In this document: in pieces, positions 43,484 through 63,505 of the stretch | How positions within the stretch are numbered: the stretch's first letter is position 1 | Layout of the letters: each line of letters starts with the position of its first letter | Assembly (NCBI RefSeq): GCF_018476525.1 | Contig: NZ_JAHCST010000006.1 | Location: 62,001-126,000, forward strand | Reading direction: 5' to 3' | Length of the DNA stretch: 64,000 nucleotides | DNA from: Acrocarpospora catenulata | GTDB taxonomy: Bacteria > Actinomycetota > Actinomycetes > Streptosporangiales > Streptosporangiaceae | The notes under the pieces: model-generated | The model's input: only the letters and a program-made list of their open reading frames with translations | Databases searched by the model: none | What the model was told of the DNA's origin: nothing | Position numbers and translations under genes: made by a program

Positions 43484-43531
43484 ACTCCGCTCCTCGGATG
43501 TACGGGTCGAAAGGGCGTGGCGACCCTAACC

Positions 43532-44240: not shown

Positions 44241-44265
44241 GGTCCACCTCCTGGGCAGCACCGGT

Positions 44266-44299
44266 ATTTCATGTATATTAGATCGATAATACATGAAAT
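44266..44299. promoter_or_regulatory. 34-bp AT-rich inverted repeat (11-bp perfect arms)
   Basis: ATTTCATGTAT (44266-44276) and ATACATGAAAT (44289-44299) around a 12-base centre. CCGG flanks on both sides almost extend the symmetry. It lies 26 bp before the hypothetical gene start and resembles an operator for a dimeric repressor; the binding protein is unknown. Confidence 0.6.
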
Positions 44300-48702: not shown

Positions 48703-48709
48703 GTATACT
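48703..48709. promoter_or_regulatory. AGTATAC site 1 (importer operon)
   Basis: GTATACT on the plus strand, AGTATAC on the minus strand, 60 bp upstream of the SsuA-like start. On the minus strand the context is GTCAAGTATACATC. Sits in a rare AT-rich stretch; see the regulon finding. Confidence 0.5.
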
Positions 48710-48873
48710 TGACGGTGAGTGTAGACACAGCCGCAGATGCTGGCAAGGTTTCATCAAAGTAAACTTCTCGGTAAGTGTATGGTGGACGGTCACGACTCGC
48801 CGCGGCGCCTCCGGGGCCGGCCTGATCAGCAGCGTGCCGGATCGATGTCCGTCCGTCGCTCCTGCCGTGGGCC

Positions 48874-50091
48874 TCAGGCCAGGCGCTCGACGATCATCGC
48901 CATGCCCTGGCCGCCGCCGACGCACATGGTCTCCAGGCCGATGGTGGCGTCGCGGCTCGCCAGGCCGTTGAGGAGTGTCGTGGTGATCCGCGCGCCGGTC
49001 ATCCCGAAGGGGTGGCCGATGGCGATCGCGCCCCCGTGCACGTTCACCTTGGCGAGGTCTGCGCCGAGTTCGTCGACGCTGGCCAGGACCTGGGAGGCGA
49101 ACGCCTCGTTGATCTCGAACAGGTCGATGTCCCCCAGGGACATCCCGGCCCTGTTCAGGGCGTCGCGCGTCGCCTCGACCGGCCCCAGGCCCATGATCTC
49201 CGGCGAGACCCCGGAGATCCCGGTCGCCACGATCCTCGCCAGAGGGGTCAGACCGAGTTCCCCGGCCCGGACGTCGCTCATGATCACCAGTGCCGCCGCG
49301 CCGTCGTTCAGGGGGCAGGCGTTCCCCGCGGTCACCGTGCCCTTCTTCCGGAACACGGGCTCCAGCCGGGCCAGACCCTCCAGGGTGGTGCCGCGCCGGG
49401 GGCCGTCGTCGCGCGAGACCACGGTCCCGTCAGGCAGCGTCACCGGGGTGATCTCACGGCCCCAGAACCCGGCGTCGAGCGCCGCTTCCGCCAGGTTCTG
49501 CGAGCGCGCGGCGTAACGGTCCTGGTCCTCCCGGGAGACGGCGTAGCGGGTGGCGACGTTCTCGGCCGTCTGGCCCATCGCGATGTAGATGTCGGGGACC
49601 TGGCCGTCGGTCCGGGGGTCGGACCAGGCCGTGTTGGCCACGGCCTGGTCGGCGGTCCGGCGTTGAGCCTGGTCGTACCGGGGGTTGTGGACGGTGGTGT
49701 CCGAGTCGGGCGGATTCGGGCCGAGCCGGGAGACGGTCTCGACGCCGACGGAGAGGAAGACGTCCCCCTCGCCGGCCCGGATGGCGTGCATCGCCATCCG
49801 GGTGGTCTGGAGGGATGAGGAGCAGAAGCGGTTCACGGTGACGCCGGGCAGCTTGTCGAGTCCGAGCCCGACGGCCACGACGCGGCCCAGATTGAACCCC
49901 TGTTCCCCGCCGGGCAGCCCGCAACCCAGGATCAGGTCGTCGACCGTGGCGGGGTCGAGGCCGGGAACGCGGTCGAGCGCCGCCCGCGCCACCTGGACGG
50001 CGAGTTCGTCCGGGCGGATGGTGGTCAGGCTTCCTTTGTACGCCCTGCCGATGGGCGAGCGGGCGGCACTGACGATGACAGCCTCAGGCAA
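48874..50091 (-). CDS. Acetyl-CoA acetyltransferase (degradative thiolase)
   Basis: 405 residues. TTG 50091 follows GGAG with five bases spacing; no in-frame ATG is nearer. Active site complete: nucleophile VNRFCSSSLQT, GGAIAIGHPFGMTGAR histidine and ETMCVGGGQGMA second cysteine; also EINEAFASQVLAS. It would release acetyl-CoA or propionyl-CoA in the last step of each beta-oxidation cycle. Divergent from the lactonase operon, with two AGTATAC sites in between. Confidence 0.95.
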   Translation of the reverse strand: MPEAVIVSAARSPIGRAYKGSLTTIRPDELAVQVARAALDRVPGLDPATVDDLILGCGLPGGEQGFNLGRVVAVGLGLDKLPGVTVNRFCSSSLQTTRMAMHAIRAGEGDVFLSVGVETVSRLGPNPPDSDTTVHNPRYDQAQRRTADQAVANTAWSDPRTDGQVPDIYIAMGQTAENVATRYAVSREDQDRYAARSQNLAEAALDAGFWGREITPVTLPDGTVVSRDDGPRRGTTLEGLARLEPVFRKKGTVTAGNACPLNDGAAALVIMSDVRAGELGLTPLARIVATGISGVSPEIMGLGPVEATRDALNRAGMSLGDIDLFEINEAFASQVLASVDELGADLAKVNVHGGAIAIGHPFGMTGARITTTLLNGLASRDATIGLETMCVGGGQGMAMIVERLA

Positions 50092-50117
50092 GATGACTCC
50101 TAGGAAACTATATGTTC

Positions 50118-50124
50118 AGTATAC
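50118..50124. promoter_or_regulatory. AGTATAC site 2 (thiolase promoter)
   Basis: TTCAGTATACAAA on the plus strand, 27 bp upstream of the thiolase start. Could overlap a -10 element (TATACT on the minus strand). Confidence 0.5.
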
Positions 50125-50208
50125 AAATTGGGCCGAGCCTGGGCCATGCCGCGTTCCTGGGATGTATGGATTCCGGGTGAACGTGCCGGGCGGGGTTGCG
50201 CGGACTCG

Positions 50209-50220
50209 GTATACTGACCG
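50209..50220. promoter_or_regulatory. AGTATAC site 3 (lactonase operon promoter)
   Basis: GTATACTGACCG, the exact reverse complement of CGGTCAGTATAC at 61765-61776 before the Baeyer-Villiger gene: twelve identical bases, opposite orientation relative to the genes. 20 bp upstream of the lactonase-like start. Confidence 0.55.
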
Positions 50221-50240
50221 TACCGATTACAGGAGGCGGT

Positions 50241-51101
50241 GTGGAACTCGAGGTGCTCGTCGACGGTCTCGGATACGTGGAGTCGCCGCGCTGGCACGAC
50301 GGCCGGCTCTGGCTGTCCGACTTCGACCAGGGGGAGGTGCTGACCGTCACCGGCGAACGGGTGACCGGCCGCCTGCCGGTCCCCGGCACCCCGTCGGGGC
50401 TGGCCTTCACCCGTCAGGGAGCGCTGGTGGCGTCGATGCGGACCGGGCGGGTACTGGGCCTGGGCCCGGAAGGCGTGACCAGGACCTGGGCCGACCTGAG
50501 CGGGGTGGCGGTCGGGCTGCTCAACGACATGACGGCCGACCGGCACGGCAATCTGTTCGTCGGTTGCTTCGGCTACGACCTGGCGGCCGGGGAGCGTCCC
50601 CGGCCGGGCCCGCTGCTCCGGGTCGCTCCAACGGGAGAGGTGTCGGTGGCCTGCCCCGACGTCACCTTCGCCAACGGGATGGCGGTTACCGGGCGGGACG
50701 AACTGCTTGTCGCCGAGACCCCCCGGCGGATCATCACCCGGTTTCGGATCGCCCCCGACGGAACGCTGCACGACCGCGCGGTCCACGCGGAGCTCGGGTC
50801 GCACCAGGCCGACGGCCTTTGCCTTGACGCCGCGGGTGGCGTCTGGTTCGGTTCTCCGTTCGCGGGCGAGTTCGTCCGGATCGACGCCCGGGGCCGGATC
50901 ACCCACACCGTGCCGACCACCGGCCGCTGGGCGGTGGCCTGCGTGCTGGGCGGCCCGGACGGTGACACCTTCTTCGGCCTCACGGCGGAGACCGACCTGC
51001 GGCGATACCACCTCGGCCAGTCCCTCGGGCGCGTCGAGCGCGCCACGGCCCCCTACCCGCGGGCCACGGAGGTGAGCGATGGACTTCGACTGGACTCCTG
51101 A
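50241..51101 (+). CDS. SMP-30/gluconolactonase-like hydrolase
   Basis: 286 residues. GTG 50241 follows AGGAGG, preferred to an upstream in-frame start. Six-bladed propeller pattern: GYVESPRWHDGRLWLSDFDQ (metal-ligand Glu), PSGLAFTRQGALVASM, LLNDMTADRHGNLFVG (Asn/Asp ligands), FANGMAVTGRDELLVAET, ADGLCLDAAGGVWFGSPF. Such proteins hydrolyse lactones using a divalent metal. With a Baeyer-Villiger enzyme in the same regulon, a role in opening a lactone ring is attractive. First gene of a five-gene operon. Confidence 0.9.
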   Translation: MELEVLVDGLGYVESPRWHDGRLWLSDFDQGEVLTVTGERVTGRLPVPGTPSGLAFTRQGALVASMRTGRVLGLGPEGVTRTWADLSGVAVGLLNDMTADRHGNLFVGCFGYDLAAGERPRPGPLLRVAPTGEVSVACPDVTFANGMAVTGRDELLVAETPRRIITRFRIAPDGTLHDRAVHAELGSHQADGLCLDAAGGVWFGSPFAGEFVRIDARGRITHTVPTTGRWAVACVLGGPDGDTFFGLTAETDLRRYHLGQSLGRVERATAPYPRATEVSDGLRLDS

Positions 51102-52212
51102 GCAACGGCGCCTGGCGGCCGAGGCGGCGAAGGTCGCCGCAGACGCCGTCACCCGGTTCGGCGCCCACTCCGACGCCTGGATGACGGGATACTCTCGCGA
51201 GTTCTCCAGGGAGCTGGCCGTACGCGGCTGGATCGGCATGGGCTGGCCCGAGGAGCACGGCGGTGGCGGACGCCCGCCGCTCGACCGGTTCATCGTGAGC
51301 GAGGCGATGCTGACCGCGGGGGCGCCCATCGCGGCGAGCTGGTTCGCCGATCGCCAGATCGGCCCCTCGCTCATCGCTTTCGGCAGCCAGGAGCAGCGCC
51401 GTCGCTTCCTGCCGGGCATCCTCGCCGGGGAGTCGACCTGGTGCATCGGCATGAGCGAACCCGGCGCGGGCAGCGACGTCGCGTCCCTGCGCACCCGCGC
51501 CCGCAGATCCGGGCGCGGCTGGGTGGTGGACGGCCAGAAGATCTGGACCAGCTTCGCCGCCACCGCGGACTTCTGTTACCTGATCTGCCGCACCGGGGAC
51601 GGAACGGGACACCAGGGCATCAGCGAGTTGATCGTGCCGATGGACACCCCCGGCATCACCGTGCGGCCCATCCTCGACATGGCGGGCGGACGGCACTTCT
51701 GTGAGGTCTTCTTCGACGAGGCCGAGGTCCCGGCCGAGAACCTCGTCGGCGTCGAGGGCGCCGCCTTCGGGCAGACCATGAGGCAGCTGGAACACGAGCG
51801 CGGCGGCGTCGACCGGCTGCTGTCCAACCGCCTGCTGTACGACACCGCCCTGCCCCACGCCGACCTCTCCAAGGCTGAGGTCCGGCAGGAGATCGCCCGG
51901 CTGGAGACCGGCTACCGCGTCGGCCGCCTCATGGTGCTCAGGGAGACCGCGCGGCAGGGCCCGGCGGGTTTCTCCGCCGTCACCAAGGCGTTCTGCACCG
52001 AGCACGAGCAACGGGTGGCCGCCTTCGCGTCGCGCACCCTGGGGCTTCCCGCCCTGGCCTGGGACGGCCTCGGCCGCGCCCTGGCCTACGCGCCCAGCTA
52101 CACGATCATGGGCGGCACCGGCGAGGTGCTGCGCAACATCGTCGCCGAACGCATGCTCGGACTGCCAAGGGAAAGCAAGGTGTACGGATCGTTTGGTATA
52201 CTTGGTGGGTGA
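51079..52212 (+). CDS. Acyl-CoA dehydrogenase 1
   Basis: 377 residues. ATG 51079 overlaps the previous gene by 23 bases. Motifs: WPEEHGGGGRPPLDRFIVSE, WCIGMSEPGAGSDVASLRTR (FAD/substrate loop), WVVDGQKIWTSFA, YTIMGGTGEVLRNIVAERML. Introduces the 2,3-double bond of an acyl-CoA with transfer to electron-transfer flavoprotein. Its last codons (SFGILGG) contain AGTATAC site 4 and a rare ATA codon. Confidence 0.93.
   Translation: MDFDWTPEQRRLAAEAAKVAADAVTRFGAHSDAWMTGYSREFSRELAVRGWIGMGWPEEHGGGGRPPLDRFIVSEAMLTAGAPIAASWFADRQIGPSLIAFGSQEQRRRFLPGILAGESTWCIGMSEPGAGSDVASLRTRARRSGRGWVVDGQKIWTSFAATADFCYLICRTGDGTGHQGISELIVPMDTPGITVRPILDMAGGRHFCEVFFDEAEVPAENLVGVEGAAFGQTMRQLEHERGGVDRLLSNRLLYDTALPHADLSKAEVRQEIARLETGYRVGRLMVLRETARQGPAGFSAVTKAFCTEHEQRVAAFASRTLGLPALAWDGLGRALAYAPSYTIMGGTGEVLRNIVAERMLGLPRESKVYGSFGILGG
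52196..52202. promoter_or_regulatory. AGTATAC site 4 (inside the end of acyl-CoA dehydrogenase 1)
   Basis: GTATACT in the coding end of the dehydrogenase gene, 7 bp before the next start. It forces codons ATA and CTT, both rare in this genome, which suggests selection for the DNA signal. May allow separate expression of the last three genes. Confidence 0.45.
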
Positions 52213-53108
52213 ACAACGACACCCTTCCGGACACCGAACGCATCCTCGTGGTCGGGGGTGGCACCATGGGTGCCGGAATCGCGCAGGCGTTCCTCGAGAA
52301 CGGCTTCGCGGTCTGCCTGACGGAGATCGACGACACCGCGGCCCTCGCCGCCCGGGAGAGGGTCCTCGCCGGGCTGGAGAGACGGGCGGCCAGAAACGAA
52401 CTCCCCGCCGCGGTGGCAGAGCTCGCCCGCCGGCTCGACGTCGGCGCCGGCCTCCCGGCGCGTACGGACATCACGTTCGCCATCGAGTCGGTGCCCGAAG
52501 ACGAGGACCTGAAGGCCGGCGTGTTGAACCGACTGGCCCTGGCCTACCCGGCCGCTGTCATCGCCACCAACACCAGCGCCCTGTCCATCGACGCGCTCGC
52601 CCGGCGCCTGCCGGACGCGGAGCGTTTCGTCGGGCTGCACTTCTTCAACCCGGTCCCCCGGTCGGCGCTGGTGGAGATCGTACGCGGAGAGCGCACCGCC
52701 AGCCGGGTCACGGCCGCCTGCCATGACCTCGTTCGGCGGATCGGCAAGGAGTCGATCGAGGTCAGGGACTCGCCGGGGTTCGCCACCAGCCGGCTGGGCA
52801 TCGCCATCGGCCTGGAGGCGATCCGCATGCTGGAGGAAGGCGTGGCCTCGGCGGAGGACATCGACGCCGGCATGGTGAAGGGCTACCGCTTCCCCATCGG
52901 GCCGCTGGCCCTCAGCGACCTGGTGGGCCTGGACGTTCGGCTGGCCATCGCCGAGCACCTGCACGCGGAGCTCGGCGACCGGTTCCGGCCCCCGGACCTG
53001 CTCCGCCGCCTCGTGGGGGCGGGCCGTCTGGGCGTCAAGTCGGGCCACGGCTTCTACGAGTGGGACGCCCGCGGCAGGATCCGGCGCGCGGCCGACATCA
53101 GCGTTTGA
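52209..53108 (+). CDS. 3-hydroxyacyl-CoA dehydrogenase (HbdA/PaaH-like)
   Basis: 299 residues; GTG 52209 overlaps the previous stop. NAD site ILVVGGGTMGAGIAQAFLEN, then AIESVPEDEDLKA, IATNTSALSIDALARR, FVGLHFFNPVPRSALVEIVRG (catalytic His) and C-terminal GPLALSDLVGLDVRLAIAEH. Oxidises the 3-hydroxyacyl-CoA to 3-ketoacyl-CoA ahead of thiolase. Confidence 0.94.
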   Translation: MNNDTLPDTERILVVGGGTMGAGIAQAFLENGFAVCLTEIDDTAALAARERVLAGLERRAARNELPAAVAELARRLDVGAGLPARTDITFAIESVPEDEDLKAGVLNRLALAYPAAVIATNTSALSIDALARRLPDAERFVGLHFFNPVPRSALVEIVRGERTASRVTAACHDLVRRIGKESIEVRDSPGFATSRLGIAIGLEAIRMLEEGVASAEDIDAGMVKGYRFPIGPLALSDLVGLDVRLAIAEHLHAELGDRFRPPDLLRRLVGAGRLGVKSGHGFYEWDARGRIRRAADISV

Positions 53109-53121
53109 TCAAGGAGTCAGC

Positions 53122-53934
53122 ATGTCCGTTCCGCTACCCGACCTGACCGGACGGGTCGCCGTCGTCACCGGCGCCAGCCGGGGCATCGGCCGGTCCATCG
53201 CCACCACGCTCGCCGGGCACGGGGCCACCGTGGTCCTCGCCGCCCGGACGAAGGACTCGGGGTCGGGCGCGTTCGAAGGCGGGATCGCCGACGCCGCGGC
53301 CGAGATCGAGGCGGCCGGTGGGCGGGCGCTGCCCCTGGTCACCGATCTCACGGACGCGGCGGGCCGGGAACGGCTGGTGTCCACCACGGTCGCCGAGTTC
53401 GGCCGCCTGGACATCCTGGTCAACAATGCCGCCGTCACCTTCTTCGGCGCGATCGACGAGATGCCGATGAAGCGATACGACCTGATGTTCGAGGTGCAGG
53501 TCAAAGCGGCATACCACCTGATGCATCTGGCGATCCCCCACATGAAGGAACAGGGAGAGGGCTGGATCCTGAACATCTCCTCCATCGCCTCCGAGCATCC
53601 CGGGGTGCCACCGCGGACCTGGACCGACGAGTTGCCCGGCACCGTCTACGGGATGTGCAAGGCGGCCCTGGAGCGGGCCAGCACCGGGGCCGCGGCCGAA
53701 CTCTTCCGGCACAACATCGCGGTCAACTCCCTGGCGCCCAACCGGGTCGTGCCCACCCCGGGCACGGTCTTCCACGGGCTCGTCGACAGTAGAGGTGAGG
53801 ACGTGGAGGATCCGGGTCTGATGCCGGCCGCGGCGCTGTTGCTCTGCTCGGGCCCGCCGCGGGAGCTGACCGGCCGCACCGCCCGGTCAGCCGATCTGCT
53901 GGCCGAACTCGGCGCGCTCCCGGCGTCCAGATGA
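53122..53934 (+). CDS. Short-chain dehydrogenase/reductase 1
   Basis: 270 residues; ATG 53122 follows AAGGAG. Classical SDR: VVTGASRGIGRSIATTLAGH, DILVNNAAVTFFG, ILNISSIASEHPG, YGMCKAALERAS (catalytic YxxxK), VNSLAPNRVVPTPG. Probably oxidises a ring or side-chain alcohol to the ketone, supplying substrate for the Baeyer-Villiger enzyme or beta-oxidation. ATGA overlap with the regulator that follows. Confidence 0.92.
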   Translation: MSVPLPDLTGRVAVVTGASRGIGRSIATTLAGHGATVVLAARTKDSGSGAFEGGIADAAAEIEAAGGRALPLVTDLTDAAGRERLVSTTVAEFGRLDILVNNAAVTFFGAIDEMPMKRYDLMFEVQVKAAYHLMHLAIPHMKEQGEGWILNISSIASEHPGVPPRTWTDELPGTVYGMCKAALERASTGAAAELFRHNIAVNSLAPNRVVPTPGTVFHGLVDSRGEDVEDPGLMPAAALLLCSGPPRELTGRTARSADLLAELGALPASR

Positions 53935-55208
53935 GCGGACGGACCCGGGGCGCGAGCCGGGACGGGGCACCGGTCAAGACGTCCAACCGCAAGCCGGCCG
54001 ACGAGCGCCGCGCGGAGATCCTCCGCTGCGCGACCCGGCTGTTCGCCGCCCACGGCTTCGACACCACGACGATGGACGACGTGGCCAGCGCGGCGAAGAT
54101 CACCAAGCGGACCCTCTACCGCTACATGAGCACCAAGGACGAGCTGCTCTTCGAGATCCACGACAGCTTCGCCGGATACTCCTCGGTGCTCGCCGGGCTC
54201 CCGCCGGGCTCCGACGACCCGGTCGCCGAGCTGACCGAGCTGATCCGGCTGCACGTCGCGATGGTCGCCGACCACACCACCGAGATCGGGGTCTTCTTCG
54301 AGGAGCGCAAGCACCTCACCGGCCCGCACGCCCGCCGCATCGAGGAGCGCCGCGACGCCTACGAGAGGCGGGCCGTCGCCATCATCGAGCGGGGGGTGAG
54401 CGCAGGCGTCTTCCACGCGCTGCCGTGCCGCGCGGTCGCGCAGGCGATCCTCGGTGCGATGACCGAGATGTACCGTTGGTACTCCCCCGGCGGCACGATG
54501 GGCGTCGACCAGCTCGCCGCCGCGCACACCCGCCTCTTCCTGTACGGCGCCGCCGCCGACCGCGACGTCGGCGGGTTCCCGTGCGACCGGCCCCCGGCCC
54601 GGCCGGTCGCCCCCGAGTCGCTCGGCGCCAGGGAACGGGTCCGGCGCGCGGCGACCACCAGCTTCGCCGGCCGGGGATTCCACGCGACGTCGATGCGTGA
54701 CCTGGCCGAGGTCGCCAACGTCACCAAGGGCGCGGTGATGTACCACGCCGGTTACAAGAACGACCTGCTCGAAGAGATCATCGCCGCCGCCTTCCACGGC
54801 GGGATCGAGGTCCTGGCCTCCGCGTCCCGGCCGGGGGACCGGGCGATCACCTCGACCCACCGCCTGGTCTGCGCACACCTGGGGTTCCTCAGCACCCACC
54901 TCGACGCGATCGCCGTGGTCAACGACAACATGCGGTACCTGGACGGCGAGGCCTTCGCGCGGATCGACCGGCTCCGCGACCAGTGGCTGGGCCACTTCTC
55001 CGACCTGCTCCACAAGAGCATGGCCGAGGGCGAGCTGGCCGCCTTCGACATCGGCTTCCTCACCCGGACTCTCGTCGGCATGCTGAACTCGGCGGCGCGC
55101 TGGTACCGGCCCGACGGCCCGCTGCCCCCCGGACAGCTCGCCGCCATCTTCTCCCGGCTGTTCTTCTCCGGCATCTCGACCGGGCCGCCTCCCGCGCTCA
55201 CACGGTGA
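53931..55208 (+). CDS. Tandem TetR regulator (Mce3R-like), paralog
   Basis: 425 residues, same double-TetR plan as the gene at 44391-45617 and clearly homologous: AEILRCATRLFAAHGFDTTT, DDVASAAKITKRTLYRYMST, then RVRRAATTSFAGRGFHATSM, RDLAEVANVTKGAVMYHAGY. Both recognition helices (KITKRTLYRY, VTKGAVMYHAGYK) are almost identical between the two paralogs, so they may bind the same or half-matched sites. Last gene of the lactonase operon; its end overlaps the opposing dehydrogenase gene by 11 bases. Confidence 0.92.
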   Translation: MSGRTRGASRDGAPVKTSNRKPADERRAEILRCATRLFAAHGFDTTTMDDVASAAKITKRTLYRYMSTKDELLFEIHDSFAGYSSVLAGLPPGSDDPVAELTELIRLHVAMVADHTTEIGVFFEERKHLTGPHARRIEERRDAYERRAVAIIERGVSAGVFHALPCRAVAQAILGAMTEMYRWYSPGGTMGVDQLAAAHTRLFLYGAAADRDVGGFPCDRPPARPVAPESLGARERVRRAATTSFAGRGFHATSMRDLAEVANVTKGAVMYHAGYKNDLLEEIIAAAFHGGIEVLASASRPGDRAITSTHRLVCAHLGFLSTHLDAIAVVNDNMRYLDGEAFARIDRLRDQWLGHFSDLLHKSMAEGELAAFDIGFLTRTLVGMLNSAARWYRPDGPLPPGQLAAIFSRLFFSGISTGPPPALTR

Positions 55209-56325
55209 GCTCCAGGAGGCGGCTGATGCGCTCCCGGTGCAGGGCCGGATCCCCCCACAGCAACTCGCTGGACTTGGCCCTCTTGAAGTAGAGGTGGGCG
55301 GGGTGCTCCCAGGTGAACCCGATCCCGCCGTGGATCTGGATGTTGTCGGCCGCCGCCCGGAAGAACGCCTCCGAGCAGGTGACCTTGGCCATCGCGGCGG
55401 CGAGCGGCAGCCCCTCGGCGTCGGCGTCGGCCGACCACAGGGCGAAGGCCGACGCGGCCCTGGCCGCCTCGATCAGGATGAGCAGGTCGGCGCACTTGTG
55501 CTTGATCGCCTGGAAGGAGCCGATCGGGCGGCCGAACTGGAAGCGGTTCTTGGCGTACTCGACGGCCATGTCCAGGCAGCGTTGCGCCCCGCCGACCTGC
55601 TCGGCCGACAGGGCGGCCAGGGCCACGTGGTGGGCCCGGTCCAGCGCCTTCGCCGCGTCGCCGCCGATCGGCGTGGCGGGGGCGCCGCCGAACTCCAGCG
55701 TCGCGAACCTGCGGGTCTGGTCCATGGTCGAGTGCGGGTGGCGGCTCAGGCCGGGGGTGTCCGCCTCCACGGCCAGCAGCAGCAGTTCGCCGCCGCTTCT
55801 GGCCGCCACCAGGACGAGGTCGGCGGTGTGCCCGTCGGGTACGAAGGTCTTGACCCCCGTGACCAGGTAACGGCCGCCGCACGCCGGCACCGCCTCGGTG
55901 GTGATGGCCGCCGGGTCCCAGGCGCCTCGCCCCTCGGTCACCGCGACGGTGGCGGTCACCTCACCGGCGACGATGCCCGGCAACCAGGCGGCGGCCGCCT
56001 CGCCGTCGGCCGAGAGCAGGACCGTCGTCGCGAGCACCGAGGTGGACAGGAACGGCAGGCAGGCCAGGTGGGCGCCCAGTTCCTCCATCACCACGCCCAG
56101 CTCGGTGGCGCCCAGGCCGAGACCACCGTACTCCTCCGGCACCAGGAGGCCCTGGAGCCCGAGCTGGTCCGCGAGGTCCTTCCACTGCGCCCGGTCGTAC
56201 CCCCCGGCGCTGTCCATCAGCTCGCGCACCACGCTCTCCGGCGAGTGCGCCGCGAGGTACTTGCGCAACACCCCGCGCAGTTCGAGTTGCTCGTCGGTGT
56301 ACGTGAAGTCCACGGTGGGGCTCAT
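55198..56325 (-). CDS. Acyl-CoA dehydrogenase 2
   Basis: 375 residues; ATG 56325 overlaps the previous stop, AAAGG directly upstream. Motifs: YTDEQLELRGVLRKYLAAHS, LVPEEYGGLGLGATELGVVM, YAKNRFQFGRPIGSFQAIKH, IQIHGGIGFTWEHPAHLYFK. The FADE-type sequence is like the smaller subunits of heteromeric sterol-degrading dehydrogenases, which pair two unlike chains; pairing with dehydrogenase 3 of the same operon is possible. Last gene of a seven-gene minus-strand operon. Confidence 0.92.
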   Translation of the reverse strand: MSPTVDFTYTDEQLELRGVLRKYLAAHSPESVVRELMDSAGGYDRAQWKDLADQLGLQGLLVPEEYGGLGLGATELGVVMEELGAHLACLPFLSTSVLATTVLLSADGEAAAAWLPGIVAGEVTATVAVTEGRGAWDPAAITTEAVPACGGRYLVTGVKTFVPDGHTADLVLVAARSGGELLLLAVEADTPGLSRHPHSTMDQTRRFATLEFGGAPATPIGGDAAKALDRAHHVALAALSAEQVGGAQRCLDMAVEYAKNRFQFGRPIGSFQAIKHKCADLLILIEAARAASAFALWSADADAEGLPLAAAMAKVTCSEAFFRAAADNIQIHGGIGFTWEHPAHLYFKRAKSSELLWGDPALHRERISRLLELTV

Positions 56326-57080
56326 CCTTTCGAACGGGGACGCGCGGCACGCCGCTCCCGGTACCACGGTTGGGTCGTCGACCACACCTGGCGGCCAAGC
56401 TCCAGCTCCAGGCTCCCGGAGTGATCCAGGCCGCGGGTGTCGCTCAGGGTGGACTTGATCAGCCTGGACAGGTCACCCGGCACCCGGGCCGCGCGGGCGG
56501 CCAGCCGGTGGGCCGCGGCCGGCACCTCGTCGTCCTCGACACACGCCCAGGCCAGGCCGATGCGCGCCGCGGTCGCGCCGTCGACCCGCTGGTCGAACAG
56601 CAACATCGCGGTCGCCGCCGCCGGTCCTGCGGCCTCGCGCAGCAGCCAGGACACCCCGCCTCCCGGGTGCAGCCCGATGGCGGCGAACCTGGCGTCGAAG
56701 AGCGCCGACCGCCCGGCCACGCGCAGGTCGCAGGCGAGCGCCAGGTTGAGCCCGGCGCCGACTGCAGGTCCGGCGACGGCGGCGACCGTCGGCAGCGGGG
56801 TGGCCCGGACCCGGAGGAAGGCGGCGTAGATGCGCCGCAGCACCTTCTCGTCCGCGCCGTCGAGCTCCCCGAGGTCGGCTCCGGCGCAGAAAGCGGCGCC
56901 CTCGGCGGCGACCACCAGAGCGCCCACGTCCGCGCGTGTCTCGGCGTGGTCGACGGCGGCCACGATGTCGTCGACGAAGCCGGGCGTCAGGGCGTTGCGG
57001 CGGCCCGGCGCCGCCAGGATCAGGGTCGCGACCCGGTCGGCGACGCGGACGCGCACCTCTCCGAAACGGTGGTCGTCCAT
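56322..57080 (-). CDS. Enoyl-CoA hydratase/isomerase 1
   Basis: 252 residues. Crotonase motifs: LILAAPGRRNALTPGF, GAAFCAGADLGELDGAD (oxyanion loop), AAVAGPAVGAGLNLALACDL and FAAIGLHPGGGVSWLLREAA. The glutamates typical of hydratases are partly replaced (GLHPGGGVSW), so an isomerase or other crotonase reaction is possible. Start ATG 57080; GTG 57092 is the alternative, overlapping the upstream stop. Confidence 0.88.
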   Translation of the reverse strand: MDDHRFGEVRVRVADRVATLILAAPGRRNALTPGFVDDIVAAVDHAETRADVGALVVAAEGAAFCAGADLGELDGADEKVLRRIYAAFLRVRATPLPTVAAVAGPAVGAGLNLALACDLRVAGRSALFDARFAAIGLHPGGGVSWLLREAAGPAAATAMLLFDQRVDGATAARIGLAWACVEDDEVPAAAHRLAARAARVPGDLSRLIKSTLSDTRGLDHSGSLELELGRQVWSTTQPWYRERRAARPRSKG

Positions 57081-57082
57081 GT

Positions 57083-57979
57083 TCAGGTCCACTGCTTCAT
57101 GAGGAGGGCCAGCTCCTCGCCGGGGTCGTCGGGGATGATGAACCCGCCGGTGTCACGGGCCTCGTCCCAGTGGTCGCGAACGGTCTCCACGGTGAGGTCG
57201 CGCGACAGGAAACCGTGGGTGAGACCGACGAAGTACCGGGCGACCCGGCCCGCACCGGCCGAGATGACCTCGCCCGTGGTAGGGCAGCTCTCGTGCGCGA
57301 GCCACGCCACGACCGGGGCCACTCGGGAGGGTTCCAGCGCCTCGGCCGCCTGCGGGGTCAGGATCGACTCGGTCATCCGGGTCCGCGCCGCGGGCGCGAC
57401 GGCGTTGACCTGGATCCCCCGGCGTGCCCCCTCCTGCGCCAGGACCCGGGTGAGGCCCACGATCCCCATCTTCGCGGCGCCGTAGTTCGACTGCCCGAAG
57501 TTCCCGATCAGCCCCGAGTTCGACGAGGTGTTCACGACCCGCCCGTACGACGCGGCCCGCATGTGCGGCCAGGCGTGCCGGGTGACGTAGAACGTGCCCC
57601 GCAGGTGCACGTCGAGGACCGCGTCGATCTCCTCCACCGACATGTTGTGGAAGGCCTTGTCGCGCAGGATCCCCGCGTTGTTGATCAGGATGTCGATCCG
57701 GCCGAACGTCTCGACGGCCCGCGCGACCATGGCCGCCGCGTCGCCGGGCGAGGCGACCGAACCGGTGTCGGCCACGGCAGATCCGCCCAGGTCGAGGATC
57801 TCCTGGACGACCCGCTGCGCGGCTCCCCCGCTCGCGCCCTGGCCACCGACGTCGCCCCCCAGATCGTTCACCACGACGTGCGCTCCGCGCGCGGCCAGCA
57901 GCAGCGCGTACTCCCGGCCGAGCCCGCCGCCCGCGCCGGTGACGAGGGCGACGCGGCCCTCGAAGCCGAGTTCTGACAT
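57083..57979 (-). CDS. SDR 2, multifunctional-enzyme-2 type hydroxyacyl-CoA dehydrogenase
   Basis: 298 residues. FEGRVALVTGAGGGLGREYA, VVVNDLGGDVGGQGASGGAA, ILINNAGILRDKAFHNMSVE, VNTSSNSGLIGNFGQSNYGA (catalytic Ser, Tyr) with AAKMGIVG. The NDLGG and RDKAFHNM features match HSD17B4/MFE-2-like enzymes that oxidise (3R)-hydroxyacyl-CoA of bulky substrates such as sterol side chains. ATG 57979 chosen; GTG 57994 overlaps the upstream stop. Confidence 0.9.
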   Translation of the reverse strand: MSELGFEGRVALVTGAGGGLGREYALLLAARGAHVVVNDLGGDVGGQGASGGAAQRVVQEILDLGGSAVADTGSVASPGDAAAMVARAVETFGRIDILINNAGILRDKAFHNMSVEEIDAVLDVHLRGTFYVTRHAWPHMRAASYGRVVNTSSNSGLIGNFGQSNYGAAKMGIVGLTRVLAQEGARRGIQVNAVAPAARTRMTESILTPQAAEALEPSRVAPVVAWLAHESCPTTGEVISAGAGRVARYFVGLTHGFLSRDLTVETVRDHWDEARDTGGFIIPDDPGEELALLMKQWT

Positions 57980-57990
57980 GACGTGCCCGC

Positions 57991-58824
57991 TCACTTTCCG
58001 ATGAACTTCGGGAGGCGCTTCTCGGCGAAGGCGACGAGCCCCTCGGCGGCGTCGTGGGAGGTCAGGTTGTAGCGGGCGGCCCGCTCCAGCTCCAGCCGCA
58101 TCTGCGCCGCGACGCCGAGCCCGGTCTCGATGCTCTCGTTGATCACGAACTTGGCGTTGGCGACCGCGAGGGGACTCATCCGGGCCGCCAGCTCGGCGAA
58201 CTCAAGACCGGCGGCGAGCAGCCCGTCGTCCGGGACCACCCGGTTGACGATGTTCCACTCCAGCGCCTCGGCGGCCGGGAGGATCCGCCCGGAGAAGATC
58301 AGTTCCCGGGCCCGCTGGGCGCCGATCGCCCGGGGGATCAGGGACAGCGCGCCGCCGCCGCCCATCTGCCCGTACCGCAGGTGGGCGTCCCCGATCCGGG
58401 CCGACTCGGCCGCGTAGGCGAAGTCCGAGCAGACGATGATCTCCAGGCCCCCGGCGACCGCGACTCCGTTGACCAGCGAGACGACGGGCTTTCTGTGCAT
58501 GCGGATGGCGAGGAAGGTCTGGTGCGCCTCCTCCAGGAAGTGCGACCAGCCGACCGGGTCCTTCTGCATCGCGATGTACTTCTTGAGGTTTCCCCCGGCG
58601 GAGAAGGCGGTCCCGGCGCCGGTGATGAGGATGGCGCGCACGCTCTCGTCGGCGTCGCACTCCGCCAGCAGCTCACGCAGCCGCAGCAGCATGGGCAGAT
58701 CCAGCGGATTCAGCTCGTCGGGCCGGTTCAGCGTGAGCAGCGCCGCGAACGCGCCCGACTCGCCGACGGGGTGCATGCTGATCAGCACGGCGTCCTCGGC
58801 GGCGGTCTCCGGTCTCGAAGTCAC
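57991..58824 (-). CDS. Enoyl-CoA hydratase 2
   Basis: 277 residues; GTG 58824 has GAGGA upstream, GTG 58836 is the alternative. Crotonase core: LLTLNRPDELNPLDLPMLLR, GTAFSAGGNLKKYIAMQ, VSLVNGVAVAGGLEIIVCSD, GQMGGGGALSLIPRAIGAQR. The AFSAGGNLK oxyanion loop and MGGGGAL are characteristic. Adds water to an enoyl-CoA in the same pathway. Confidence 0.92.
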   Translation of the reverse strand: MTSRPETAAEDAVLISMHPVGESGAFAALLTLNRPDELNPLDLPMLLRLRELLAECDADESVRAILITGAGTAFSAGGNLKKYIAMQKDPVGWSHFLEEAHQTFLAIRMHRKPVVSLVNGVAVAGGLEIIVCSDFAYAAESARIGDAHLRYGQMGGGGALSLIPRAIGAQRARELIFSGRILPAAEALEWNIVNRVVPDDGLLAAGLEFAELAARMSPLAVANAKFVINESIETGLGVAAQMRLELERAARYNLTSHDAAEGLVAFAEKRLPKFIGK

Positions 58825-58838
58825 TGGCTTCCTCACTC

Positions 58839-60038
58839 TCAGCTTCTCGGGATGTCACGCCAGGGCACGTCCTTGTCGGCCCTCGGGTCGCCGGGGAGAC
58901 CGAGGACCCGCTCGGCGAGCACGTTCTTCATGACCTCGCTGGTGCCGCCCTCGATGGAGTTCGCGCGGCTGCGCAGGAACGCCTTCTGCGGGGTGGAGTA
59001 CTCCATGGCCAGGACGGGACGCACCTTGTCGTACGACTCGTACAGCAGGCCCTCCGCTCCCATCAGGGTCACCAGCTCGGAGTAGACGTCCTTGTTCAGG
59101 TCCGCCGCGATGATCTTCGAGATGGAGCCCTCGGGGCCGGGGGTGTCCCCCGTACGGAGCTGGCTCAGCCTGATGTTGGCCAGGCGCAGCACCTCGGCCC
59201 GGACCCAGAGATCGGCGACGGCGCCGGTGTGCAGGCGGGCGGTGGCGGGGTCGGTCCTGGCGAGCTCGCGGTACCGCTCGACGAGCCGGGCGATCGGGCC
59301 CGAGCCACGCGGCGGGATCACGCCGCCGATCGAGACGCGCTCGTTCATCAGGGTGGTGAGCACGACCTTCCAACCGTCGCCCACCCGGCCCAGCCGCGCC
59401 GCGTCGGGGATGCGGACCCCGTCCAGGAACACCTCGTTGAACTCGGCCTCTCCGGTGAGCTGGTACAGCGGGCGCACCTCCACCCCGGGCGCCGACATGT
59501 CCAGGAGGAACGCGGTCAGCCCCTGGTGTTTGACCGCGTCCGGGTCGGTACGGGCGATGAGCAGACCCCACGACGACCGGTGGGCCATGGTGGTCCACAC
59601 CTTCTGGCCGTCGGCCACCCACTCCGCGCCGTCGCGACGGGCCCGGGCCGCCAGGCCGGCCACGTCGCTGCCCGCGCCGGGTTCGCTGAAGAGCTGGCAC
59701 CAGATTTCCTCGCCGGTGAACAACGGGCGCAGGTGGCGGCGTTTCTGCTCCTCGGTGCCCCACACGACCAGGGTGGGCGCGCACATGCCGTGGCCGATGG
59801 GGTTGATCTCGAAGGCGTCCGGACCCCCGGCCTCCTTGATCACATGGTTGACCGCCGCCTGCAGCCGGACGTCGGCGCCGAGTCCGCCGTGACCGGGGGG
59901 ATGGTTGATCCAGGCCAGGCCGCGGTCGAACTGGGCGGCCAGGAAGTCCCGTACCGGGGTCCGGGCGGGCGGCAGGTCGGCGACCAGGGCGCGAGCCAGC
60001 GAACGGGCCTCGTCCTCGTCGATGCGCGGTTGGCTCAT
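58839..60038 (-). CDS. Acyl-CoA dehydrogenase 3
   Basis: 399 residues; ATG 60038 overlaps the DUF35 gene stop. Motifs: INPIGHGMCAPTLVVWGTEE, WCQLFSEPGAGSDVAGLAAR, WVADGQKVWTTMAHRSSWGL, NSIEGGTSEVMKNVLAERVL. The EGGTSEVMKN segment is typical of FadE-like enzymes acting on bulky acyl-CoA. Possible partner of dehydrogenase 2. Confidence 0.93.
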   Translation of the reverse strand: MSQPRIDEDEARSLARALVADLPPARTPVRDFLAAQFDRGLAWINHPPGHGGLGADVRLQAAVNHVIKEAGGPDAFEINPIGHGMCAPTLVVWGTEEQKRRHLRPLFTGEEIWCQLFSEPGAGSDVAGLAARARRDGAEWVADGQKVWTTMAHRSSWGLLIARTDPDAVKHQGLTAFLLDMSAPGVEVRPLYQLTGEAEFNEVFLDGVRIPDAARLGRVGDGWKVVLTTLMNERVSIGGVIPPRGSGPIARLVERYRELARTDPATARLHTGAVADLWVRAEVLRLANIRLSQLRTGDTPGPEGSISKIIAADLNKDVYSELVTLMGAEGLLYESYDKVRPVLAMEYSTPQKAFLRSRANSIEGGTSEVMKNVLAERVLGLPGDPRADKDVPWRDIPRS

Positions 60039-60457
60039 CTGACTTCCTCACGGGTGCTCACGAGGGCGACCGGGACCATGAAGTCCCCGCCCGGCAGTGG
60101 CCGCATGGCGATGTCCACTCGGGTCCCGGGAGCGACGTCGCCGTCGGTGCCGACGACCCGGGTCACGATTCTGGGCCCGCCGACGCCCCCGACCTCGACG
60201 ATCACCACCGTGTAGGGGGTGGGGTAGAGCGGGACGGCGGGGTGCCGCATCACCGTGCCGCTGTAGACCACGCCCCACAGCGGCGCGGCCTCCGGCTGGA
60301 GCGGGACCGCGCAGGCCCGGCACATCTCCAGGGGCGGGTGCTGCCAGGCGCGGCAGCGGGGGCAGCGCGCCAGGATCAGCCGGCCGCCGCGGGCGCCGTC
60401 CCAGAACGGGCCGGTCAGGGCGTCGGGGACCGGCTGGAAGGCGCTCAGGTCGCTCAT
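60035..60457 (-). CDS. DUF35 Zn-ribbon/OB-fold acyl-CoA-associated protein
   Basis: 140 residues. Zinc ribbon CPRCRAWQHPPLEMCRAC (two CxxC) followed by an OB fold (GVVYSGTVMRHPAVPLY, YTVVIVEVGG). DUF35 proteins form complexes with thiolase-fold proteins; in steroid side-chain breakdown the DUF35 part of ChsH2 is required by the aldolase Ltp2. Encoded immediately after a thiolase-fold protein with ATGA overlap, it fits that partnership. Confidence 0.92.
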   Translation of the reverse strand: MSDLSAFQPVPDALTGPFWDGARGGRLILARCPRCRAWQHPPLEMCRACAVPLQPEAAPLWGVVYSGTVMRHPAVPLYPTPYTVVIVEVGGVGGPRIVTRVVGTDGDVAPGTRVDIAMRPLPGGDFMVPVALVSTREEVR

Positions 60458-61620
60458 CGGGCCGCCTCGAGCAGGAGCGCTCCGCCGTAGGGGCCGCCGC
60501 CTGCGGTCACCACGGCTGTGCTCGCGCCGTCGACCTGGCGCTCGCCGGCCTGCCCGCGCAGTTGCGCGACGGCCTCGTAATGGTGGTTGAAACCATGGAT
60601 GTATCCCTCGGAGAGAAGCCCGCCGTGGGGGTTCACCACGACGTCGCCGCCGTAGCCGGCCCGGCCGTCACGGAAGTAGTCGCCCCCTTCGCCGGGCTTG
60701 TAGAAACCCAGCCCTTCGAGCGAGACCAGCAGGGTGTAGGTGAAACAGTCGTAGACGCAGGCGACGTCGACGTCGGCGGGCCGCAGTCCGAAACGGTTCC
60801 AGAACCGGTCCGCGATCTTGGCGGTGTACATCTCGGTGAAGTCGGGCCAGTTGTTCCACGACCCGCCGGAGTTCCAGGTGAACTCCCCGCCCCTGATGAG
60901 CACGGCCGGCTGGGCGAGGTCCCGGGCCCGTTCCGGTGTGGTGACGACCAGAGCGCAGGCACCGTCCACCTCCAGCGAGCAGTCGTAGACCCGCAGCGGG
61001 TCGGAGACCATCCGCGAGCCGAGGTAGGCCTCCAGGGTGAGCGGGTCCCGCATGACCGCGTGCGGATTACGCCCCGCGTGGGCGCGCAGGGTGATGGCCA
61101 GGGCGCCGAGATCCTCCGGCGTGGTGCCGTACCGCGCCTGGTGCCGCCGGGCCCACATCGCGAACCACTGCGGCGGAACGGCGTAGCCGGAGGCGAAGTC
61201 GAAGACCTGGTCCGGGTGGTTGAGCAGGCTCGCCATGCCGGACCCCTGGCTGTAACGCAGTCCAGAACGGCCGCACAGGGAACGGTAGACGAGGGCGTAC
61301 CTGCACACGCCCGAACTGACGGCCATGGCCGCCGCGTGCACTGAGGTGAAGGAACCCGTGCCGCCCGCGTAGACGTCGAGGTTCCAGGTCAGCTCACCGG
61401 CGCCGATCGCGTAGGGCACCTGCCCGAACGTGGCGCTGTCGTTCATGCTGTACGACGCCACCCCGTCGATGTCGGCGACGTCGAGCCCGGCGTCGGCGAC
61501 GGCGGCCCGGCTCGCCTCGGCGGCCAGCGAGAGCGGCGACCGGGGACCGGCCGGGTCCCTCGTATAGGCCGTTCTGCCGATCCCCACCACCGCCGCGATG
61601 GCCTGGCCGCCATCAGACAT
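60454..61620 (-). CDS. Thiolase-fold protein without catalytic cysteine (Ltp2-like aldolase candidate)
   Basis: 388 residues; ATG 61620 is chosen because upstream in-frame ATGs (61752, 61674) precede an AGTATAC site and lack conservation. Thiolase/SCP-x fold: AAVVGIGRTAYTRDP, LAAEASRAAVADAGLDVADI, ALVYRSLCGRSGLRYSQGSG. At the nucleophile loop it reads VYAGGTGSFTSVH, with Gly where thiolases have Cys; a DCFTYTLLVSLEGLGF segment and NPHGGLLSEGYIHGFNH follow. These traits match Ltp2-type retro-aldolases that cleave tertiary 3-hydroxyacyl-CoA with a DUF35 partner. First gene of the seven-gene operon. Confidence 0.85.
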   Translation of the reverse strand: MSDGGQAIAAVVGIGRTAYTRDPAGPRSPLSLAAEASRAAVADAGLDVADIDGVASYSMNDSATFGQVPYAIGAGELTWNLDVYAGGTGSFTSVHAAAMAVSSGVCRYALVYRSLCGRSGLRYSQGSGMASLLNHPDQVFDFASGYAVPPQWFAMWARRHQARYGTTPEDLGALAITLRAHAGRNPHAVMRDPLTLEAYLGSRMVSDPLRVYDCSLEVDGACALVVTTPERARDLAQPAVLIRGGEFTWNSGGSWNNWPDFTEMYTAKIADRFWNRFGLRPADVDVACVYDCFTYTLLVSLEGLGFYKPGEGGDYFRDGRAGYGGDVVVNPHGGLLSEGYIHGFNHHYEAVAQLRGQAGERQVDGASTAVVTAGGGPYGGALLLEAAR

Positions 61621-61656
61621 TGCCCCCACCTGCTTCCCGTTGCGCACTAAACGCTT

Positions 61657-61663
61657 AGTATAC
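61657..61663. promoter_or_regulatory. AGTATAC site 5 (aldolase operon promoter)
   Basis: CTTAGTATACACA, 37 bp upstream of the thiolase-fold gene start on the minus strand. Confidence 0.5.
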
Positions 61664-61745
61664 ACACGCACCATGCCTCTGACATCACCCCGGTTCCAGG
61701 AGGCCCTCGATCCAATGCACCCCAAGCGAAGACCGTTTGAAGATT

Positions 61746-61776
61746 TTGACATTCAGCCTCTGACCGGTCAGTATAC
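61746..61776 (+). promoter_or_regulatory. Promoter with AGTATAC site 6 for the Baeyer-Villiger gene
   Basis: TTGACA at 61746-61751, 17 bases, then CAGTAT at 61769-61774 form a good sigma-70-like promoter. AGTATAC (61770-61776) overlaps the -10 element, so a bound repressor would block it. CGGTCAGTATAC (61765-61776) is shared exactly, inverted, with site 3. Confidence 0.55.
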
Positions 61777-61822: not shown

Positions 61823-63505
61823 GTGAGCAAGGCGGCAGGAGCACCTGACAGGAGTGGAGGGCCGGATCACGAGTTCATCATCATCGGGGCCGGGATCTGC
61901 GGCTTGTACGCCCTTCACCGCCTCCTGGAGATGGGGCGCGACGTCATCGCGCTCGAAGCGCACCCCGGGCTGGGAGGTACCTGGTACAAGAACCGCTACC
62001 CCGGTTGCCGGTTCGATTCCGAGAGTTACACCTATGGGTACTCCTTCTCCCCGGAACTCCTCCAGGAGTGGGACTGGAGCGAGCACTTCGCCGCCCAGCC
62101 GGAGACGCTGCGTTACCTGAACCACGTCGCCGACCGGTTCGACCTGCGCCCGCACATCCGTTTCGACAGCGTGGTCCGGTCAGCCGTCTTCGACGACGGC
62201 GCCGGCGGGTGGACCCTCGAACTCGCCGACGGCCGGCGACTCACCTGCCGTTTCCTCATGACGGCCCTCGGCCTGCTGTCCGCCCCGGTGAAACCGCGCA
62301 TCCCCGGGATCGAGCGGTTCCAGGGCACCTCGTTCCACACCTACGACTGGCCCGAGGGCCTCGACCTCACCGGGAAACGGGTGGGGGTCATCGGTACCGG
62401 GTCGACCGGCGTACAGATCATCGCCGAGCTGGCGGGGCAGGTCGCCGAACTCGACGTCTTCCAGCTCAAGCCGAACTGGTGCGCCCCGCTGAACAACAGC
62501 CCCATCACCCGTGAGGAGATGGCGCACATCAAGGCCGGCTACGACGAGATCTTCGCCCGGTGCGCGGAGACCCCCGGCGGGTTCATCCACGGCCCCGACC
62601 GCCGACCCTTCCACGAGGTGTCGCGGGAGGAGCGGCTCGCGCTGTGGGAGAAGTTGTACGCCTCCCCCGGCTTCGGAATCTGGCTGGGCAACTTCCGCGA
62701 CATCCTCCTCGACGAGGACGCCAACCGGGAGTTCTCCGACTTCATCGCCGACAAGATTCGCAAACGGGTGCACGACCCGGTCACCGCGGAGAAACTGATC
62801 CCCAAGGACCACGGTTTCGGCGTGCACCGGGTTCCCCTGGAATCCGGCTACTACGAGGCCTACAACCACGATTCCGTGCGTCTGGTCGATCTGGAGGAGA
62901 CGCCGATCGTCGAGATCAACGAGACCGGCGTCGCCACCTCGGCAGGCCAGTTCGACCTCGATGTGATCGTGTACGCCACCGGCTTCGACGCGATCACCGG
63001 GTCGTACGACCGCATCGACTTCCGCGGCCGCGACGGGGTGCGGCTCCGCGACAAGTGGGCCGACGGCCCGACGACCTATCTCGGCGCGCTCGTCTCGGGG
63101 TTTCCCAACCTCGTCATGCTCGGCGGGCCCCATTCCGCCTCGGTCGCGACCAATTTCCCGCGCGCCATCGAGACCTCCGTCGACTGGGCCGCCCACCTGT
63201 TCGCCCACGTCATGGCCCTCGGTTACGTCCGGATCGACTGCGATCCCGACGCGGAGACGGAGTGGACCCGGCACATCCAGGATCTCTACCAGCGGCAGTT
63301 GCTGCGCAAGGCCAAGTCCTGGTTCACCGGGTACAACCCGAACATCCCCGGCCAGGACCGCACGCGCTACCTCATCTACACCGGCGGGGCGCCCCGGTAC
63401 AGACGCGAACTGGACGAGGTGGCCGCAGACGGCTACCGGGGGCTGGTGTTCAGCTCGCCCGATGAGGTCCCCCATCTCACCTCGTCAGAGGGCGTGACCT
63501 CCTGA
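61823..63505 (+). CDS. Type I Baeyer-Villiger monooxygenase
   Basis: 560 residues; GTG 61823 with GGGGAG upstream. FAD site IIIGAGICGLYALHRL, the type I BVMO fingerprint FQGTSFHTYDW (FxGxxxHxxxW), second Rossmann motif GVIGTGSTGVQII for NADPH, and VYATGFDAITGSYD. Such flavoproteins insert oxygen beside a ketone to give an ester or lactone with O2 and NADPH. Cyclohexanone/cyclopentadecanone/steroid monooxygenases share this length. First gene of a plus-strand unit facing away from the aldolase operon. Confidence 0.93.
   Translation: MSKAAGAPDRSGGPDHEFIIIGAGICGLYALHRLLEMGRDVIALEAHPGLGGTWYKNRYPGCRFDSESYTYGYSFSPELLQEWDWSEHFAAQPETLRYLNHVADRFDLRPHIRFDSVVRSAVFDDGAGGWTLELADGRRLTCRFLMTALGLLSAPVKPRIPGIERFQGTSFHTYDWPEGLDLTGKRVGVIGTGSTGVQIIAELAGQVAELDVFQLKPNWCAPLNNSPITREEMAHIKAGYDEIFARCAETPGGFIHGPDRRPFHEVSREERLALWEKLYASPGFGIWLGNFRDILLDEDANREFSDFIADKIRKRVHDPVTAEKLIPKDHGFGVHRVPLESGYYEAYNHDSVRLVDLEETPIVEINETGVATSAGQFDLDVIVYATGFDAITGSYDRIDFRGRDGVRLRDKWADGPTTYLGALVSGFPNLVMLGGPHSASVATNFPRAIETSVDWAAHLFAHVMALGYVRIDCDPDAETEWTRHIQDLYQRQLLRKAKSWFTGYNPNIPGQDRTRYLIYTGGAPRYRRELDEVAADGYRGLVFSSPDEVPHLTSSEGVTS

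Follow-up and report, generated by a model that had tools for sequence, protein, structure and literature searches.

In this study, we followed up a short word, AGTATAC, that recurs in a catabolic gene cluster of Acrocarpospora catenulata. The window analysed is a stretch of 64,000 nucleotides, positions 62001-126000 of contig C138 (NZ_JAHCST010000006.1) in the 10.29-Mb genome (G000), and positions given without a contig name are those of the window. We find that AGTATAC is, on the other strand, the strong arm of a predicted operator, an imperfect palindrome of 22 bp with the ideal form GTATACTGACCGGTCAGTATAC. Judged from the sequence, it is very probable that this operator is bound by the two tandem-TetR proteins encoded in the island that carries it, which would make the island a regulon under repressors that act as single-chain pseudo-dimers and are released by a ligand. 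What can be read directly from the genomes compared is the site with its length and dyad, its confinement to the island and its association with tandem-TetR genes in three lineages.

Extent, symmetry and specificity of the operator

The six AGTATAC sites reported in the window by a first-pass annotation are all present, with correct coordinates and strands, and the window holds no others. The claim that such a heptamer should be rare in this DNA also holds, with six occurrences observed against a mean of 0.30 in dinucleotide shuffles and none of 100 shuffles reaching six. A genome-wide scan, which had been proposed as a check, gave 30 strand matches at 25 distinct places, five of which read AGTATACT and so match both strands; 11 of the 25 are clustered in C138:110703-161010, a region of about 50 kb that makes up 0.5% of the genome, and the remaining 14 are elsewhere. 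As had been noticed, sites 50209 and 61770 do share CGGTCAGTATAC. Each site had also been placed close to the start of its own transcription unit, and this stands in part: the six are about 10-60 bp from predicted starts, but site 52196 sits in the last codons of an acyl-CoA dehydrogenase gene, before a hydroxyacyl-CoA dehydrogenase start and inside one apparent operon, so that it does not clearly mark a separate unit. Here and below, start codons are predictions, some of them revised, on which the distances between operators and starts depend.

Alignment of 12 GTATAC-type sites from A. catenulata with 11 from Acrocarpospora pleiomorpha (G127), in orientations chosen by fit, gave the consensus GTATACTrAnCRkWCAGWr, in which the C at +10 and the G at +16 are invariant in all 23; the A. 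pleiomorpha sites are orthologs and not independent. A search of orthologous clusters had been called for, and 11 of the 12 A. catenulata sites have a counterpart in A. pleiomorpha. In the 11 ungapped pairs identity is 0.90 at positions +6 to +21, as against 0.57 in the left flank and 0.50 in the right flank, the identity of 1.00 in the core being there by selection. Past +21 most positions agree in 3-8 of the 11 pairs; single positions reach 10 and 9. The cross-species footprint of the predicted operator is 21-22 bp long, diverges outside and is dyad-symmetric. The best dyad axis falls between +10 and +11, with a value of 0.55 compared with at most 0.39 elsewhere (20 axes tested). Paired positions amount to 6.17 of 11 in the 23 sites, compared with 2.82 in 5000 shuffles (standard deviation 0.30, maximum 3.83), and to 6.00 in the 12 A. 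catenulata sites alone, compared with 2.81 (standard deviation 0.42, maximum 4.25; 5000 shuffles). Eight weaker sites give 5.38 compared with 2.85 (standard deviation 0.51, maximum 4.62), having been picked by a matrix that already held the symmetry. Dyad, footprint and positions agree with the (quasi-)palindromic operator near target starts that would be expected of the TetR family.

Two other readings of the site were given up. AGTATAC as a free-standing motif is ruled out, the word being only one arm of a longer site, and a wholly asymmetric operator (GTATACT plus CAGT), which was the first reading, was dropped after the Rhodococcus and G695 sites described below and the dyad test.

One alternative takes the heptamer to be only a promoter element, with TATACT as a -10 box that recurs via a shared sigma factor. 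TATACT does resemble a -10 hexamer, the six sites lie some 10-60 bp 5' of starts, and TTGACA-like hexamers (at least four matches) at a distance of 16-19 bp accompany 5 of 23 and 4 of 23 sites in the two orientations, compared with a background of 8%. However, this explanation is highly improbable, as conservation spans the 22-bp palindrome and drops sharply on both sides, the orientation relative to genes is mixed, the eight further sites without GTATAC keep the longer motif, and 200 kb of other genome DNA holds no comparable site. A sigma-70 -10 element as the whole story was therefore rejected, given the weak -35 signal (5 and 4 of 23) and the mixed orientation, while an overlap of operator and -10 box at some sites is compatible with an operator bound by the tandem-TetR proteins.

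The pattern GTATACNNNNCRNWNNGW has 12 matches in A. catenulata, all 12 within the island, 13 in A. pleiomorpha, of which 11 are in its island, and 0-6 in each of the other 293 of 295 family genomes. It was derived from these sites, so that the counts in both Acrocarpospora genomes partly follow from it, whereas the low counts elsewhere do not. A position weight matrix (PWM) trained on six out-of-window sites, with orientations taken from the joint 23-site alignment, ranks seven window positions first, namely the six already annotated and 48759; the lowest score among these is 15.9, and the best unrelated position in the 64 kb scores 12.4. A matrix scan of 200 kb of other A. catenulata DNA gave no match of at least 16 bits, and 80 kb around the 14 non-island AGTATAC places gave a single one, of 17.8. 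When each site was left out in turn and its flanks were scored, 21 of the 23 sites reached at least 5.4, the 99% level of shuffled flanks being 4.9, and the 14 non-island AGTATAC places reached at most -1.0. Conserved flanks, a footprint with a dyad and recovery of the six sites by the out-of-window matrix support the proposal of the first-pass annotation that the word belongs to a bound operator of a regulon. In A. pleiomorpha, operator-like matches outside the island were seen at C110:19607-19621, C38:42950, C43:57658 and C4:545079, which may be distal targets or chance; the last has only 15.5 bits and lies in a predicted coding region.

The tandem-TetR regulators and their remote relatives

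The best candidate binders of the operator are two tandem-TetR proteins. Regulator 1 (P0001, 408 aa) is encoded at 44391..45617 on the minus strand, at the left edge of the conserved island, and regulator 2 (P0002, 425 aa) at 53931..55208 on the plus strand, as the last gene of the lactonase operon. In both, Pfam recognizes TetR_N and TetR_C_24 in two stretches each, which together with a helical model gives the TetR_N helix-turn-helix and all-helical C-terminal domain of the TetR family. The two are 52% identical; by boundaries that were our own choice, their recognition helices are identical at 9/9 and 9/10 positions and their ligand domains at 63/125 and 55/125.

An AlphaFold model of regulator 1 (pLDDT 81.6, pTM 0.80) has as its best Foldseek match Mce3R of Mycobacterium tuberculosis (Rv1963c, PDB 9b7y; E 1.9e-13, TM 0.76/0.81, 413 columns, 19% identity), and the matches that follow cover about one half of the chain. 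On this model, the regulator would be of the Mce3R type, with two TetR units per chain that form an intrachain pseudo-dimer. The likeness is one of two TetR units, similar chain length, a full-length fold match and lipid-type catabolic targets. According to the excerpts of PMC11667970 consulted, the two unlike units of one Mce3R chain pair up to bind DNA at 25-bp sites, two of which lie 53 bp apart in one promoter; pairs in the island lie 51-164 bp apart. With 19% identity in the structural alignment, however, neither the close identity nor the mce3/yrbE3 targets expected of an ortholog were found, and of the island open reading frames (ORFs) scanned with Pfam none came out as an mce gene. Set against an asymmetric Mce3R-type operator of about 25 bp, in a comparison made without the letters of that operator, the island arms differ in strength and the dyad is clear. 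KstR2 and other single-domain TetR catabolic repressors likewise act on lipid or steroid catabolism, and KstR2 is among the sequence and fold matches; unlike the island regulators it has a single TetR unit, which matches one half of the chain, and its operator probably differs from the island operator. AibR and FadR are among the best single-unit fold matches but also match only one half of the chain; their entry titles name complexes with isovaleryl-CoA and stearoyl-CoA, which by analogy gives a hint that the island regulators might have an acyl-CoA ligand.

Tandem TetRs of this kind were sought in genomes with only the top candidates per genome scored (about six in the family search). In the family (297 genomes), the full-length matches among those listed are only in A. 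catenulata (two) and A. pleiomorpha (three), and the next ones listed cover one half of the query. The order search gave tandem TetRs in 3 of 345 genomes (E 1e-40), among them one new case, 33% identical, in G695, which belongs to another family. In samples of the class (394 genomes) and the phylum (396 genomes) only A. catenulata had one, the phylum figure being 1 of 396 at E 1e-60. A plasmid search, of which the best 10 of 349 matching records were listed and two examined, led to two tandem TetRs on a plasmid of Rhodococcus sp. DMU1. The remote proteins of G695 and DMU1 are 31-36% identical to the island regulators. A candidate in G1278, the sole match in 256 genomes of the family of G326, was rejected because it consists of two neighbouring single TetR genes separated by a stop; 40 kb around these genes held no operator match of 9 bits.

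The Acrocarpospora matrix was not trained on either remote lineage. Near the G695 tandem TetR it finds matches of 28.3 and 22.2 bits, compared with a background maximum of 14.5 in 120 kb of that genome, and near the DMU1 tandem TetRs matches of 28.5, 28.5, 23.9, 23.1, 22.7 and 20.9 bits, compared with a maximum of 14.9 in 50 kb of plasmid. The island thiolase gene at C138:126447-127616 has reciprocal best matches of 52-55% identity in both remote neighbourhoods, the Baeyer-Villiger-like gene has 33-34% identical counterparts in both, and operators stand upstream of thiolase and Baeyer-Villiger-like genes in all three lineages. In G695 the predicted ORF of the latter is over-long and contains the operator; if translation begins at the candidate position 14917, 25 bp away from the operator, the product has an N-terminal extension of about 150 residues, as in the annotated DMU1 gene. 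By contrast, around the tandem TetR of Rhodococcus DK180 plasmid pDK3 (23% identity) there was no operator within 10 kb, the best score in 21 kb being 11.7. The first-pass suggestion that tandem-TetR proteins bind the motif thus gains independent support, as remote tandem-TetR genes in two other lineages adjoin strong matches to the same operator.

The same evidence bears on the idea that the operator is real but bound by a regulator encoded elsewhere, for example a single-domain TetR. Single TetRs typically bind palindromes, and a first look at the A. catenulata genome gave 114 TetR-like candidates. We nevertheless consider this very unlikely, because Pfam, applied to 46 of 50 island ORFs (two of them in part), names a transcription-factor domain only in the two tandem TetRs, and because the operator accompanies tandem TetRs in two further lineages.

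Recognition helix 1 is identical at 8-9 of 9 positions across the 10 pairs compared, while helix 2 is identical at 9-10 of 10 in two Acrocarpospora pairs and at 4-6 of 10 when Acrocarpospora is compared with the other lineages. The GTATACTG arm is retained across lineages; after CAG, Acrocarpospora has T or A and the other lineages mostly have G or A. As helix 1 and the GTATACTG arm are both kept, and helix 2 and the base after CAG have both changed, these few contrasts suggest that unit 1 may read the strong GTATACTG arm.

The DMU1 plasmid (NZ_CP050953.1, 75082-160000; L068, L098) carries a related catabolic cluster that includes the two tandem TetRs, and transposase and group II intron genes lie close by. 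Of the six distinct operator matches there that exceed 20 bits, three precede flavin monooxygenase-like genes. Among open-licence PubMed Central papers, the string CTGACCGGTCAG had no match, which does not by itself prove its absence in print, and Rhodococcus sp. DMU1 had none either. Five operator strings matched only unrelated papers, as judged from the listing, and among the matches listed for AGTATAC with TetR and for tandem or double TetR phrases none was relevant.

Operators and genes of the island

The first-pass annotation was right about the six sites in the window, but it overlooked the second arm, the sites of lower score and 35 kb of the regulon past the window; the site set continues to about C138:161000, so that roughly half of the cluster had been seen. 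In the island there are 20 operator positions of at least 14 bits when overlapping matches on both strands are merged (21 at 16 bits under another merging rule). Eight of the 20 lack GTATAC and were not used in training, and the weakest of the 20 scores 17.6. Every operator centre lies upstream of a predicted start, at a distance of at most about 160 bp, and three apparent overlaps with coding sequence stem from over-long or spurious predicted ORFs. Seven promoter regions have two operators each, 51-164 bp apart. These pairs, together with the 7 of 20 centres whose nearest predicted start is over 60 bp away, would be compatible with activation or looping, and the tandem TetRs might accordingly be activators on the same operators. 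Such a role has little probability in our view, since 13 of the 20 centres are within 60 bp of a predicted start and the nearest structural relative, Mce3R, is described as a repressor in the excerpts of PMC11667970.

Within the window, operator 1 (48703..48724, plus strand, GTATAC arm first) lies upstream of ATP-binding cassette (ABC) importer genes at 45811..48643 on the minus strand and has a counterpart in A. pleiomorpha. The importer genes encode a permease and an ATPase, both recognized by Pfam, and a probable lipoprotein binding protein; the latter (47528-48643) has no Pfam match, and its role is suggested by position and a signal-like start. Operator 1b (48759..48780, plus; PWM 18.6), 56 bp from operator 1, is weaker and lacks GTATAC; it was found by the out-of-window matrix and is present as an identical 23-mer in the A. 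pleiomorpha island. Operator 2 (50103..50124, minus; PWM 34.7) is upstream of a thiolase gene (48874..50091, minus; Pfam) and has no paired GTATAC site in A. pleiomorpha. Operator 3 (50209..50230, plus; PWM 24.4) is just 5' of the probable start of the lactonase operon at 50241, a GTG behind AGGAGG. This operon (50241..53934, plus), probable from its spacing, encodes a lactonase (SGL), an acyl-CoA dehydrogenase, a 3-hydroxyacyl-CoA dehydrogenase and a short-chain dehydrogenase/reductase (SDR) and ends with regulator 2. Operator 4 (52180..52201, minus; PWM 27.1) is the internal site; it overlaps the acyl-CoA dehydrogenase gene at its 3' end and precedes the start of the hydroxyacyl-CoA dehydrogenase gene. 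Operator 5 (61642..61663, minus; PWM 30.6) stands upstream of the probable start, at 61620, of a seven-gene operon (55198..61620, minus), again probable from spacing, for an Ltp2-like thiolase, a DUF35/ChsH2-like protein, two acyl-CoA dehydrogenases, two enoyl-CoA hydratases and an SDR. Operator 6 (61755..61776, minus; PWM 31.4) precedes a Baeyer-Villiger-type flavin monooxygenase gene (61823..63505, plus; Pfam FMO-like), and its counterparts precede related genes in G695 and Rhodococcus DMU1. Against the NCBIfam model for pentalenolactone D synthase PtlE the product scores 213.8 bits, under the cut-off of 1100.

Beyond the window, where gene names are from Pfam, operators are found with thiolase and F420-type monooxygenase genes (C138:127648), alcohol dehydrogenase, P450 and ferredoxin genes and a kinase-like gene (C138:132222), a periplasmic binding protein and a major facilitator superfamily transporter (C138:136636 and 136800), sulfotransferase and enoyl-CoA hydratase genes (C138:140261), a nitronate-monooxygenase-like gene and a molybdopterin oxidoreductase (C138:142323 and 142374), a CoA ligase (C138:145306 and 145377), an acyl-CoA dehydrogenase and a metallo-hydrolase (C138:155209 and 155314), a DoxX protein (C138:156444), and a CoA-transferase and a thiolase-like gene (C138:161001). 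At C138:127626-127661 (L002), between the divergent thiolase and F420-type monooxygenase genes, one GTATAC core is apparently common to two overlapping operators that point in opposite directions; the second has less than 8 bits in A. pleiomorpha. Also beyond the window, a predicted ORF at L003:7039-8364 (minus) starts SDR-like, has no Pfam match and looks like a truncated or shifted remnant. The presence of P450, alcohol dehydrogenase, a Baeyer-Villiger-type enzyme, lactonases, CoA ligases, acyl-CoA dehydrogenases and Ltp2/DUF35-like pairs suggests a cyclic terpenoid-like or steroid-like compound as the substrate of the pathway.

A. pleiomorpha carries the island in inverted order, with proteins that are mostly 84-95% identical and some genes with weaker or no counterpart. 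Protein similarity ends at regulator 1, and the six predicted ORFs at 38429-44294 have no BLASTP counterpart (1e-10) in the 120 kb compared of A. pleiomorpha. Three other genomes of the genus gave no tandem TetR at E 1e-40. The island appears to be an accessory block. In A. pleiomorpha it encodes a third tandem-TetR paralog, at L050:12608-13855, which A. catenulata was not found to have; an operator of 18.1 bits precedes this gene by about 65-120 bp, according to which start is taken.

Proposed mechanism and its meaning

We propose that one chain carries two unlike TetR units that would fold into a pseudo-dimer, whose N-terminal reading helix would take the nearly invariant GTATACTG arm and whose C-terminal helix the looser CAG arm. 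The tandem TetRs would sit on the approximately 20 operators near gene starts and repress the catabolic island until a pathway intermediate, which is probably either an acyl-CoA or an acid derived from a lactone, releases them and the units are induced together. Regulator 2 would be autoregulated through its own operon by operator 3. While binding is what the company of operator and regulator genes points to, repression, ligand and the assignment of the arms are modelled on Mce3R and on TetR proteins generally. Most likely the operator turns the whole island on and off together.

Several observations weigh against this mechanism. In the matrix scan of the island, regulator 1 has no operator of at least 14 bits directly upstream, and the sites just 5' of the remote regulators themselves score no higher than background (11.6 and 13.9). 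The 17.8-bit match outside the island reaches the level of the weakest of the 20 island sites, and the pair 110703/230803 fails the leave-one-out test, with scores of -2.9 and -0.5. Operator 4 overlaps coding sequence, so that its conservation is less telling. The operator of Mce3R is non-palindromic in the excerpts of PMC11667970, unlike the imperfect 22-bp palindrome of the island. Furthermore, the independent lineages are few, and regulators 1 and 2 are indistinguishable as binders.

A more specific idea, which we put forward tentatively and as somewhat less probable than even, is that the paralogous tandem TetRs (two here and three in A. pleiomorpha), with near-identical DNA heads and diverged sensors, could form a multi-input switch on some 20 shared operators, the first unit reading the arm that is kept across lineages and the second an arm that changes with its recognition helix.

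The regulon and its operator are new, and the mechanism would be one of a known kind. Few genomes have a tandem TetR of this subfamily (3 of the 345 searched in the order and 1 of the 396 searched in the phylum), and the one tandem structure met is that of Mce3R. With some 20 natural variants of the predicted operator, two or three paralogous readers and two remote relatives, the way in which unlike heads in one chain read DNA becomes directly testable. In A. catenulata the operator would define the regulon of a pathway with a P450, an alcohol dehydrogenase, a Baeyer-Villiger-type enzyme, a lactonase, a CoA ligase and Ltp2/DUF35 pairs, probably acting in this order, and it offers a handle for finding similar islands.

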